From contig NZ_PDKF01000004.1 in assembly GCF_004118855.1 (NCBI RefSeq), positions 1 to 64,000 on the forward strand: a stretch of DNA of 64,000 nucleotides, written 5' to 3'. The notes under the pieces are model-generated. The model searched no databases. It saw only the letters and a list, made by a program, of their open reading frames with translations, and was not told where the DNA came from. The position numbers were made by a program, and so were the translations under genes. Source of the stretch: Arcobacter sp. CECT 8983. Its GTDB lineage: Bacteria; Campylobacterota; Campylobacteria; Campylobacterales; Arcobacteraceae. Below are positions 30,786 through 35,756 of the stretch, piece by piece (the stretch's first letter is position 1; each line of letters starts with the position of its first letter).

Positions 30786-31175
30786 ATGGATATACTTTCA
30801 CTTTTTTTCATTTTTGTAGCCATTGAACTTTTTGAAACAAACTGGCAAAAATCAGATTCTATACATGGAATCTTACTTAATAACTATAAAGTATATAGAT
30901 ACAACATTTTCTTATTTTTCTTATTAAACTTTAGTTTTATTTATTCAATTTTTTTAGTAATATATTTACAAAATAACTCATTTTGGATGTTAAGTATTGT
31001 AGGTATAAAGTTTTTAGATATCGCATTTAAACTAAATATTATGTCAAGAATCAATAGTGATACACCTTTAGAAAATATTATGCCTAATATTAAAGTAGGT
31101 TTATTATTTAGATATGCAAATGTAATAATTTATCCAATTACTTTTTTATTTGCTACAAATTATTTTATTTTTTAA
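30786..31175 (+). CDS. small integral membrane protein of unknown function
   Basis: A 129-residue hydrophobic protein that I do not recognise. Four membrane segments are likely, around residues 1-17, 38-60, 65-82 and 108-127. A polar loop follows the third (SRINSDTPLENIMPN). It starts 35 bases after rpoC, with only a weak hairpin between, so it may be read from the rpoC transcript. It has no clear ribosome binding site. Confidence 0.65.
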   Translation: MDILSLFFIFVAIELFETNWQKSDSIHGILLNNYKVYRYNIFLFFLLNFSFIYSIFLVIYLQNNSFWMLSIVGIKFLDIAFKLNIMSRINSDTPLENIMPNIKVGLLFRYANVIIYPITFLFATNYFIF

Positions 31176-33147: not shown

Positions 33148-33196
33148 AAGAATTAAATGTACATAAAATTGAATATAGAATTTGTGTCTTTTCCTT

Positions 33197-33204
33197 CCCC
33201 CCCC
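33197..33204. repeat. C8 homopolymer tract
   Basis: Eight consecutive C stand in very AT-rich DNA (TTCCTT before, TTCTCT after). In Campylobacterota, long G/C runs often vary in length by slipped-strand mispairing. This one lies between the 194-residue ORF and the integrase remnant. Confidence 0.7.
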
Positions 33205-33235
33205 TTCTCTAACTTATAAAAGAGATAAAATCATA

Positions 33236-33550
33236 TTTAAGACTAAAAGGAAATCTGTATTTTCTTCTCCTCAAAAAAGTAATAGAGGTGTCTCAGGTGT
33301 AACTCTAAGTAATACATTAGTAAGACTTGGATATTAAAATAGGCATATTGTGCATGGCTTTAGAAGTATGTTCTCTACTACTGCGCATAATTTTTATAAA
33401 GAACATGGTTTTCATTCTGATAGTATAGAAGCTTGTTTATCTCATAAAGAAAAAGTTTAATATAATAGAGAATCAAAGTTTAAGTACTTTGAAGAGAAGA
33501 GGGAGCTTATTCAGTGGTATGCAGATTGGTTGGATAAACTCCTCTGTTAA
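33236..33550 (+). pseudogene. C-terminal remnant of a tyrosine integrase
   Basis: One reading frame runs through 33236-33550 with two internal TAA codons. It reads like the catalytic half of a tyrosine recombinase: VFSSPQKSNRGVSGVTLSNT, RLGY, then HGFRSMFSTTAHN (the H-x-x-R box), LSHKEKV and YNRESKFKYFEEKR with the nucleophile Tyr position, ending IQWYADWLDKL. The stops fall after RLGY and after HKEKV. It is a dead gene, the partner of the fragment at 32410. Confidence 0.82.
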
Positions 33551-33568: not shown

Positions 33569-33706
33569 TTAATCTTCATCTTCATCATGATTATAATCAT
33601 CATAGGCATCATTGTTGTCATTATGAGCATCAGCCCAATCATCCATATCTGCATCATTGTTTGGATTATTTATATCACTCCATAAATCATTATAGTCTCT
33701 AGACAT
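33569..33706 (-). CDS. 45-residue Asp/Asn-rich acidic protein
   Basis: A small ORF starting MSRDYNDLWSDINN, then mostly Asp, Asn, Tyr and Trp, and ending DEDED. It has a clear AAAGGA site 6 bases before the ATG, so it is probably made. It lies 17 bases after the HicA-like gene on the same strand. The very acidic composition resembles DNA-mimic or antitoxin-like proteins, but that is only suggestive. I do not recognise the family. Confidence 0.6.
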   Translation of the reverse strand: MSRDYNDLWSDINNPNNDADMDDWADAHNDNNDAYDDYNHDEDED

Positions 33707-33723
33707 TCTTTTTCCTTTTATAT

Positions 33724-33954
33724 TTAATTGATATAGTTGATAAACTCTATTTTTGAAACGTTGATATTCTTTAATATGCTATAGAGTAAACCTAACTTTA
33801 CTAACTTCTTCTTATCCACTGGAATAATTAATATCTTTTTATTTTCTTGCTTATAGACTCTGTGATTACCCTTGTTTAATCTTTCAAACTTATAACCAAT
33901 TGAATTTACATATGATATTAACTCTTTTTCAGTTAAATTAGATTTAGAAACCAT
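33724..33954 (-). CDS. HicA-like toxin family protein
   Basis: A 76-residue protein with the double-stranded RNA-binding fold pattern of HicA mRNA interferases. It has TEKELISYVNSIGYKFE, then KGNHRVYK in place of the usual GSH box with the catalytic His kept, then LIIPVDKKKLVKLGLLYSIL. HicA cleaves mRNA and is normally paired with HicB. No HicB-like gene lies next to it. Its start overlaps the end of the broken small ORF upstream (TAATG) and it is followed by a 45-residue acidic ORF. Confidence 0.72.
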   Translation of the reverse strand: MVSKSNLTEKELISYVNSIGYKFERLNKGNHRVYKQENKKILIIPVDKKKLVKLGLLYSILKNINVSKIEFINYIN

Positions 33955-34093
33955 TATTTTCCTTTTGAACCTTTTGGGTTATTAGGATTCAATTGAGATC
34001 TCCTATTTCTATGTACTTTTGAATAAACACTATGTGTGCGTTAGTATCTTTATTTGAATTTGCTTAATTTCCTTTATGGTTATTGTTTGTCAT
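33954..34093 (-). pseudogene. frameshifted small basic ORF upstream of hicA
   Basis: A very strong AAGGAGG site precedes an ATG at 34093, but the frame (MTNNNHKGN) stops after 9 codons. A different frame then stays open and reads THSVYSKVHRNRRSQ, then LNPNNPKGSKGK, ending in a TAA that overlaps the hicA ATG by one base. The most simple reading is a small basic protein broken by a stop and a frameshift. Programmed frameshifting cannot be excluded. Confidence 0.5.
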
Positions 34094-34172: not shown

Positions 34173-35756
34173 ATGGATGGAAAAATTAGAAGTATTGAAG
34201 AGGTTTTTGATTGGTATTTAAAAGCAATAGATGTAAAACTCGATAGAAAAACTATTGAAAGATATATAAAAAATGAATCTCAAAAAGTAGAAAAGAATAC
34301 TGATGTTTTCGATAATTTAGTAAATAATATTCTAGAATCAATAGAGTTTCAAGATAATTCTAAAGAACATTTTAAATACTTGCTAGAAAACTTTATTGAA
34401 GTTTATAAATGTTTTACTCAATATGTTGAATCTTACCATACCTCACAAAAACAATTAGACTTTTTATTAGCAAAGGACATCGTTATTCCATTTCTTGCTC
34501 TATTCAGTTCATATGTGTTTGGCAAGCATTTAATTATATTAAGACAAATAAAACCAGATGAAGTAAAAAAGTCTTTTCAAAAATTTTTAGTTTGGGCAGA
34601 AAGAAACATCTGTCAGCAAGATATAAAAAAATATTTAATAGGTACGTACGAAAAAGATGAAGACTATGACAAAGGCTATGATACTGTAAGAAAGTTAATA
34701 AACAGTTGGCTTGATTTAGAAGAACAAACTATTCCTAAGAAAGAACACCTTCAAAAAATAGTTCAATATTTAAAATATTGTAACAAAGCAACACACCTTA
34801 ATTTACATAACCTATCACTTTTTTCAAAGCTTTTTCAATTTATTAATAAAGAACTTGAAAATAATTTTAATTATAAGGAAATAGAACTTCTTGTAGAACA
34901 CTATTTTTGCTTATTAGAGTTTTATTCAGTTTCATCAACATCATTTGATATTCAAGAAACTGAATATAGAATTTATACTGAGCTTTTAAATCATATTAAT
35001 CCTAATATAATAAATCTTAACCATTATTTTGATGATTATTTTATATGGCTTCGAAAAGTTGTAAAAAGAGATTATATTACTCCCTATAAATTGATAAAAA
35101 AAGTACTTGAGAGAAATAGGTTATTTTACAATTTATCTGAAACAGATTGTATGAAATATATTGAAACAAATCTTCCTGTATTATATTTTAATAAAACTAA
35201 ACATCAAAATGAATATGTTGATTTATGGAATCAAATGAATTCACAAAAAGACAATATTGAACAACTTACACAATCAGCTAGTAGTAAGTTACTGACTAAA
35301 CTGTACGTTGAACATTTAGATATGAAAAAAGAGAAAACTCTGGATGACAAAACAGAATGCCATGAGATTTTCAAGAAGTTAGAAAGTGAATTTAAAGAGG
35401 ATGATACAAATCAATATATATGTTTTTTAAAAACTCGTTACTTTATTTTTGATAATAAACCAAAAGAAGCATTAGAATATTGTAAAAAATGTGTTGAATT
35501 AGGCATTGGAAAACTGGGAGAACATTTTAAAGAAGCTGTTATGACTGGTATTTTACTATCGGCTAAGAATAATAGAAAAAAAGAATATAACTTTTTCAGA
35601 ACGATAGCAATCAAATATGATAGCTTGTTTTTTAACAGATTAAAAATTCCAGCTTATGGAAGAGGTGGCAAAGTGGTCGATATTCCTGAAGACAAAAACA
35701 ATTTTACAGAGCTTATAAATGAATATAACAATTATTTTTGTCATAAGTTCGAATAA
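34173..35756 (+). CDS. 527-residue helical protein of unknown function
   Basis: I do not recognise this protein. It is soluble, rich in Lys, Glu, Asn and Tyr, and almost wholly helical in pattern. The first 30 residues (VFDWYLKAIDVKLDRKTIERYI) could form a helix-turn-helix. From about 400 to 500 there are helix pairs like tetratricopeptide repeats (YFIFDNKPKEALEYCKKCVE, then EAVMTGILLSAKNN). No enzyme motif is visible. It is divergent from the small minus-strand cluster with 79 bases between. No strong ribosome binding site precedes the ATG. Its place in a decayed island suggests an accessory role, possibly defense, but nothing proves it. Confidence 0.72.
   Translation: MDGKIRSIEEVFDWYLKAIDVKLDRKTIERYIKNESQKVEKNTDVFDNLVNNILESIEFQDNSKEHFKYLLENFIEVYKCFTQYVESYHTSQKQLDFLLAKDIVIPFLALFSSYVFGKHLIILRQIKPDEVKKSFQKFLVWAERNICQQDIKKYLIGTYEKDEDYDKGYDTVRKLINSWLDLEEQTIPKKEHLQKIVQYLKYCNKATHLNLHNLSLFSKLFQFINKELENNFNYKEIELLVEHYFCLLEFYSVSSTSFDIQETEYRIYTELLNHINPNIINLNHYFDDYFIWLRKVVKRDYITPYKLIKKVLERNRLFYNLSETDCMKYIETNLPVLYFNKTKHQNEYVDLWNQMNSQKDNIEQLTQSASSKLLTKLYVEHLDMKKEKTLDDKTECHEIFKKLESEFKEDDTNQYICFLKTRYFIFDNKPKEALEYCKKCVELGIGKLGEHFKEAVMTGILLSAKNNRKKEYNFFRTIAIKYDSLFFNRLKIPAYGRGGKVVDIPEDKNNFTELINEYNNYFCHKFE

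Follow-up and report, generated by a model that had tools for sequence, protein, structure and literature searches.

RESULTS

Three small genes lie head to tail on the minus strand

The 64,000-nucleotide stretch of Arcobacter sp. CECT 8983 DNA analyzed here (the window) is part of contig C4 in a genome of 24 contigs (G000:C4). Its minus strand carries three small readings in head-to-tail order: a broken basic gene (positions 34093 to 33955), a hicA gene (33954 to 33724), and a gene for an acidic protein of 45 residues, beginning "MSRDYNDLWSDINNPNNDADMDDWADAH..." (33706 to 33569). The last stop of the broken basic reading and the ATG of hicA have one base in common, and 17 bases lie between the hicA stop and the ATG of the acidic gene. 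The order, the 1-base overlap, and the 17-base spacing described in an earlier sequence-only reading were thus all recovered from the coordinates. The same reading had credited each gene with a good ribosome binding site, and an A/G-rich, Shine-Dalgarno-like stretch does precede all three starts, with a strong one at the basic reading. Promoter- and terminator-like sites were no more numerous at the cluster than in shuffled sequence, and Rfam matched nothing between positions 31000 and 37000. We rejected the possibility that the readings are chance ORFs because they are conserved: the Pfam score of HicA, the conservation of the acidic protein, and the match of the broken ORF to a family of intact genes rule it out.

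A 527-aa protein is encoded divergently from the cluster (34173 to 35756, plus strand). A plus-strand reading with stops at 33182 to 33550 resembled the end of a tyrosine recombinase by eye; it was discarded as a candidate after Pfam returned no match to its translation, in which the stops were written as X.

The window encodes a HicA protein without a detectable HicB

The 76-residue product of hicA contains a HicA domain (PF07927, E 5.6e-9) that scores above the curated threshold (36.4 bits; cut-off, 27) and also matches PHROG 353, "toxin" (E 6.5e-9). Its conserved histidine is present as GNH in place of GSH, which upholds the original description of a HicA-like protein that keeps this residue. 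The GNH variant is common to five of its six close relatives, the exception being the GSH of L005. The protein is 58 to 62% identical to the copies in L002, L003, and L004, and its pN values of 0.22 to 0.24, relative to pS values of 0.71 to 0.85, were obtained against L002, L003, L004, L013, and L015. It had no match in plasmid and phage records and is the sole HicA found in the genome.

The statement that no HicB lies beside this HicA also stood, as our local HicB profile gave no match at the window locus. A HicB encoded elsewhere, which the sequence-only reading had named as refuting its guess if it paired with this HicA, was not detected in the whole genome with PF15919, the one HicB model searched.

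The broken basic gene belongs to a family found in many phyla

The first reading of the cluster (33955 to 34093, minus strand) matches a family of small basic proteins that we call "NPNN," with the motif NKGTxGxN ... GNRGKQLNPN (E 1.5e-8 at 33957 to 34037; E 2.9e-7 in a second search). The reading frame of the window copy is interrupted by a stop after codon 9 and changes before the conserved C-terminal half, which bears out its earlier designation as a broken basic ORF. Intact copies are found in relatives (e.g., L002, L003, L013, and L015), and NPNN adjoins HicA in all six close HicA relatives. The basic gene of L002, L003, and L004 encodes 43 to 46 aa, and its stop overlaps the start of hicA by one base.

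With the broken copy counted, NPNN occurs in 12 of the 104 genomes of the window's family and in 31 of 397 Campylobacterota genomes. One scan of named genomes yielded 245 stretches that fit the pattern, of which 211 were confirmed as NPNN and 80 were kept; the hosts include Treponema, Vibrio, Helicobacter, Bacteroidota, Brachyspira, cyanobacteria, and Pseudomonas, among others. None of these 80 named loci has a HicA-profile match within 500 bases of NPNN, and a HicA-like reading lies 830 bases away in L131. The NPNN members tried matched no Pfam, NCBIfam, or PHROGs family (a single NCBIfam line, at E 0.55, was far below the cut-off). The L060 copy had no match in phage records at E 0.1, and our alignment A4 had no confirmed match in viral contigs.

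The surroundings of NPNN are diverse, and in several genomes it lies beside housekeeping-like genes. On a Klebsiella plasmid, it sits between the beta-lactamase genes blaGES-24 and blaOXA-921 (L049:2387-2668). The motif also occurs within larger Vibrio plasmid proteins whose N-terminal parts look alike by eye (L051:2252-2989 and L054:2312-3025); a below-cut-off match to Glyoxalase_8 was obtained for the L051 protein and also for the gene upstream of HicA in L166. A Thg1-like (tRNA-His guanylyltransferase) gene lies 1 bp 3' of NPNN on an Arcobacter plasmid (L056:2462-3338), and related MoxR-type AAA genes lie 5 to 92 bp 3' of it in L073, L081, and L090 (bpMoxR match from L073). A 348- to 426-aa gene, a 265- to 277-aa gene, and NPNN follow one another in L063, L080, L100, L107, and the viral contig L171; the DUF7192 match of the 265- to 277-aa gene comes from L063 alone, in L100 this gene spans two ORFs, and the comparison with L171 was made by eye.

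Classified HicA loci of the Campylobacterota have a HicB-like neighbor, tiny genes, or viperin

An alignment-based search found HicA in 16 of 397 Campylobacterota genomes, and in 10 of the 104 genomes of the window's family. Nineteen HicA loci, with L166 added to the set, were classified with local profiles; L006 (with a HicB-like neighbor by eye), the viral loci L046 and L047, and the HicA-like reading of L131 were left out of this tally. A HicB-like neighbor was recognized at nine of the 19 loci with a profile built from eight neighbors judged to be HicB by eye rather than by Pfam, seven of them at loci in the same set. None of these nine loci had NPNN, acidic, or viperin matches. The 10 loci without such a neighbor comprise six with an intact NPNN gene, one with NPNN and a HicA remnant (L182), one with viperin (L177), one with the acidic gene (L166), and the window itself, with the acidic gene and the broken NPNN gene.

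The third ORF varies even among the closest HicA relatives. A gene that we call DDRG takes this place in L002 and L003, one that we call PSTT does so in L004 and L015, and L013 has none; in L005, DDRG lies upstream. DDRG is itself acidic (pI 4.3 in L003). The acidic ORF of the window is missing from all six relatives (L002, L003, L004, L005, L013, and L015), and the idea of a dedicated HicA partner shared by all of them is therefore ruled out, as other third ORFs or none are found there. DDRG ("DWxDDRGLxDxDWV"; L002, L003, L005, and L028) and PSTT ("PSTTxxPSGxxRGN"; L004, L015, L018, L019, L030, and L165) are tiny proteins that recur near the same small genes.

The acidic gene is conserved and mostly follows unrelated small basic genes

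The acidic protein (gene at 33569 to 33706, minus strand) has a pI of 4.1 and a charge of about -16; at pH 7, the computed charges are -16.3 for this protein and +8.6 for HicA. It contains two W...NxNN repeats. Alignment with homologues, a search of the Campylobacterota, dN/dS, and a tally of neighbors were used to assess it. The window protein is 72% identical to a copy in Vibrio hepatarius and 71% identical to that of L025, from another Campylobacterota family. The gene is known from at least three phyla (Campylobacterota, Vibrionaceae and allies, and Fusobacteriota, where it sits on a plasmid) and from one viral contig. At an E of ≤1e-4, it was found in 11 of 397 Campylobacterota genomes, the window's included, although two of the 11 matches are weak and NPNN-like; it was also matched in 8 of the 200 genomes of G442's family and 1 of the 44 of G433's family. 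Between the window and L166, dN was 0.10 and dS was 1.31 (Nei-Gojobori, one pair), with synonymous sites near saturation in most other pairs. To judge from its conservation at the protein level, the acidic ORF is a real gene. The members tried had no Pfam, NCBIfam, or PHROGs match.

We compared the neighbors of the acidic gene at 22 loci (the window, L166, L158 [the same place as L025], L159 to L163, L165, L189 to L193, L060, L067, L068, L070, L071, L074, L048, and L169). Left out were L167 and L168, whose weak acidic-profile matches have an NPNN look (E 1.9e-6 and 9.4e-5), the divergent acidic readings of L066, L105, and L050, and the acidic tails of L109 and L127. A small basic gene lies directly upstream on the same strand at 19 of the 22 loci, and it belongs to one of three families unrelated to each other: a seed-maturation-like (SMP-like) family (11 loci), NPNN (6 loci), or HicA (2 loci). 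The gap to the acidic gene is 1 to 2 bp for 10 of the SMP-like genes (including those of L160 and L163) and 54 bp for that of L048, 1 bp for all six NPNN genes, and 17 bp (window) or 11 bp (L166) for HicA. At the remaining loci, NPNN is downstream of the acidic gene (L158) or no basic gene was recognized upstream (L165 and L169); the acidic reading of L165 is off frame at its end, and a PSTT gene lies downstream. A profile built on the proteins of L048 and L161 recovers all 11 SMP-like genes (E ≤ 1.5e-9), so that the profiles lead to the same assignment and to the same 19 loci in 22 with a small basic gene before the acidic one. The NPNN-acidic count is biased because those six loci were reached through NPNN; when the count is limited to the 16 loci, the window among them, that were found by searching with the acidic protein, 11 have SMP-like genes, 2 have HicA, and 3 have neither upstream, giving 13 of 16 with a basic gene.

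The SMP-like proteins score below the 22-bit cut-off of the seed maturation protein model PF04927 (L048, E 3e-4 and 21.5 bits; L161, 19.7 bits), and for L048 Ifi-6-16 scored better than SMP, also below the cut-off. No PF04927 match was obtained for the acidic and NPNN members tried. The loci with NPNN directly before the acidic gene are from Vibrio hepatarius, Photobacterium, Aliivibrio, Catenovulum, and two further Vibrio genomes, and none of the six has HicA. At these loci (L060, L067, L068, L070, L071, and L074), ParE_like, NPNN, and acidic genes stand in a row, with gaps of 10 to 17 bp and then 1 bp.

The HicA-acidic pair recurs in a second family

In L166, from a genome of another family, the same acidic protein is encoded 11 bp downstream of HicA. 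It starts MSRDYDDLWSDINNPNNDAD; the start of the window protein is the same but for one residue. The L166 HicA has 77 aa and is above the Pfam cut-off (PF07927, E 6.1e-7; hhalign probability, 94), and no NPNN or SMP-like gene was found at this locus. The HicA-acidic pair is thus seen twice among the 10 HicB-less HicA loci. The two HicA-linked acidic proteins cluster together (ultrafast bootstrap of 90 in a tree of 16), whereas the two HicAs are far apart in a tree of 20; trees of proteins this short are weak.

These results divide the suggestion of the sequence-only reading that the acidic ORF is an unusual HicA partner. The ORF is conserved, no HicB was found, and a search for the pair in other genomes returned L166; on the other hand, 20 of the 22 acidic loci lack HicA, and the closest HicA relatives lack the acidic ORF and have other third ORFs or none.

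Large neighbors stay in place while the adjoining small genes change

Several families of large genes keep their position while the small genes beside them are exchanged. A 343- to 455-aa family (31 to 41% identity between L138/L003, L018, and L159/L189) lies beside NPNN-HicA-DDRG, NPNN-PSTT, or SMP-acidic. A 356- to 358-aa pair (30% identity) lies beside acidic-NPNN (L025) or SMP-acidic (L193). A 106- to 115-aa gene and its 107- to 144-aa partner are found beside NPNN, NPNN-HicA, or SMP-acidic (L013, L014, L015, L020, L160, L163, L190, and L191); between the two groups, a link exists for the partners (E 2e-14), and the 106- to 115-aa genes are linked within groups only.

The 527-aa neighbor in the window is 63% identical to a 530-aa ORF that is divergent to an intact NPNN gene on the Arcobacter plasmid p133_LEO_107 (L056). 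It had no Pfam match above the cut-off and no PADLOC match at 0.01, and its predicted structure was too poor (pLDDT, 39.8) for a fold to be assigned. Matches to N-terminal parts of the PADLOC "Ankyrin" profile PDLC02908 were obtained for large neighbors in G045 (E 3e-42) and in G051 (E 5e-23 and 7e-15). The profile also matches 10 of the 12 genomes searched, mostly via ankyrin repeats at other sites, as well as 5 of 14 control genomes.

ParE-like and viperin genes occur near NPNN

ParE_like genes lie beside NPNN at 9 of the 80 named loci, 10 to 23 bp upstream at seven and at 382 to 543 bp at two; the ParE_like profile was built from these nine, three of which match Pfam PF24732. At 5 of the 80 named loci and at L037, a viperin gene is found no more than 1.2 kb from NPNN (called by PADLOC for L037, L058, L078, L082, and L098 and by a local profile for L087, where the gene is in two ORFs). 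Viperin, ParE-like, and NPNN genes follow in series in L098. An 80-aa Treponema gene between NPNN and viperin (L058 and L050) looked HicA-like by eye; this assignment was dropped, as the gene had no Pfam match and an hhalign probability of 0.3. PADLOC families matched numbered 97 among 140 direct NPNN neighbors versus 32 among 119 distant ORFs, figures that count families, which overlap on single proteins, and not proteins.

A related GNH HicA lies directly 3' of a viperin gene in L177 (local profile), and it forms the branch nearest to the HicA clade of the window, with weak support (62). No viperin gene is near the window. Its genome has one strong viperin match, on contig C8 (G000:C8:501853-502671; L151), that is 51% identical to the L177 viperin. 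This gene is followed by an NYN-domain gene, on C8 and not on the window's contig.

DISCUSSION

The cluster can be read as a HicA module without HicB, with the antitoxin's position taken by a strongly acidic and probably disordered protein of 45 residues. HicA (+8.6 in the window) fills, both here and in L166, the slot for a small basic protein before the acidic gene (-16.3). Given this arrangement, the acidic protein most likely pairs with HicA and holds it in check, HicA being one client among several. We lean, tentatively and at less than even confidence, toward a polyanionic acidic protein that swaps partners among small basic proteins and that here probably restrains HicA. The genes would form two-gene operons in which the small basic protein (SMP-like, NPNN-like, or HicA) comes first and the acidic protein second; in the window's presumed operon, an NPNN gene comes first and has decayed. 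Its negative charge and the two W...NxNN repeats would let the acidic protein bind HicA (charge of about +9) and cover the RNA-binding face of the putative RNase. Loss or titration of the acidic protein, as might occur during phage infection, would then release a HicA that is otherwise kept silent. Since small basic partners without known toxicity are among its neighbors, the acidic protein need not be an antitoxin.

What weighs most against this reading is that different genes take third place in the closest HicA relatives and that the HicA clade has its steady neighbor in NPNN, which is broken in the window. Because NPNN adjoins HicA in all six close relatives, the broken gene is the one tied to the HicA clade, if any small protein is. 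The acidic protein might thus belong with NPNN or SMP-like proteins rather than with HicA, which would have been inserted between or beside them, leaving the window's acidic gene as the remnant of a pair whose basic half is broken. SMP-like (11) or NPNN (6) genes directly precede the acidic gene at 17 of 22 loci, the six NPNN-acidic loci do without HicA, and the third ORFs of the HicA relatives are unrelated, all of which favor such an origin. However, L166 has the HicA-acidic pair with no NPNN or SMP-like gene found, and the window's acidic ORF still looks constrained in the comparison with L166 even though its basic neighbor is gone. On balance, we regard this explanation as unlikely, if a serious competitor to restraint of HicA by the acidic protein.

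A broader and equally doubtful proposal casts the acidic protein as a promiscuous miniature antitoxin or chaperone for SMP-like, NPNN-like, and HicA proteins, carried in interchangeable cassettes beside several families of large proteins and tied to antiphage defense through its ParE-like and viperin neighbors. The Panacea domain is reported as a promiscuous type of antitoxin (PMC8832971). It resembles the acidic protein in that one type pairs with unrelated partners; Panacea is reported to be toxin neutralizing, whereas the 45-residue protein of the window is a putative partner.

The sequence-only reading had also raised a DNA mimic. DNA- and RNA-mimic proteins are small and strongly acidic, and the known ones are folded. 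A putative role of this kind for the acidic protein agrees with its size, charge, and context, although the W...NxNN repeats set it apart from such mimics.

Gerdes 2024 (PMC10865869) describes 14 HicA contexts and reports hicA and relE next to viperins. The window resembles the HicAB systems treated there in its small HicA with domain and histidine, its compact gene set, and its overlapping or close genes, but it differs in that no HicB was found. According to the Results section of that paper, none of the 14 contexts contains NPNN, SMP-like, or acidic small proteins. The window shares a HicA without HicB with the classes in which HicA lies beside prokaryotic viperin (classes 9 and 10), and the HicA of L177 is the branch nearest to the window's HicA clade, weakly supported at 62; it differs in having small basic and acidic genes in place of an adjacent viperin.

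These contexts raise the prospect that HicA is an antitoxin-free effector of a viperin-linked defense, with the viperin encoded elsewhere in the genome and the small proteins acting as adaptors or triggers with HicA or ParE-like proteins. The GNH HicA directly 3' of viperin in L177, the viperin genes that accompany NPNN at distances of up to 1.2 kb (five named loci out of 80, plus L037), the ParE_like genes upstream of NPNN (9 of 80), the genome's own L177-like viperin on C8, and the published viperin contexts noted above are consistent with this scenario. We nevertheless consider it improbable. No viperin lies near the window, and a general enrichment of defense genes beside NPNN does not follow from the PADLOC comparison (97 families for 140 direct neighbors versus 32 for 119 distant ORFs), which counts overlapping families rather than proteins. 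Least probable of all, NPNN, SMP-like, and acidic proteins could be small stress-protective hydrophilic proteins (hydrophilin or LEA-like) without a toxin role and with HicA as a passenger, as their tiny size and hydrophilicity, the weak matches of SMP-like proteins to the seed maturation model (below 22 bits), and the housekeeping-like neighbors of NPNN in several genomes might suggest, but near-identical motifs across phyla (GNRGKQLNPN and DINNPNNDADMDDWADAH) would be unusual for unspecific protectants, and HicB-less HicA, ParE-like, and viperin neighbors recur.

A literature search for four motif strings, in a coverage from which subscription papers were mostly absent, found nothing, and the NPNN, SMP-like, and acidic families are not described in the titles and abstract openings of the literature searched. 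Two very small, unannotated families emerge from the comparison: the basic NPNN proteins, spread over many phyla, and the acidic proteins, known from at least three. Their gene order is unusual in that partners are swapped. The Campylobacterota HicA loci that we classified split in two, those with a HicB-like neighbor and those with tiny proteins of which the members tried had no Pfam, NCBIfam, or PHROGs match (or with viperin). These loci offer a directly testable gene set for the control of HicB-less HicA proteins.
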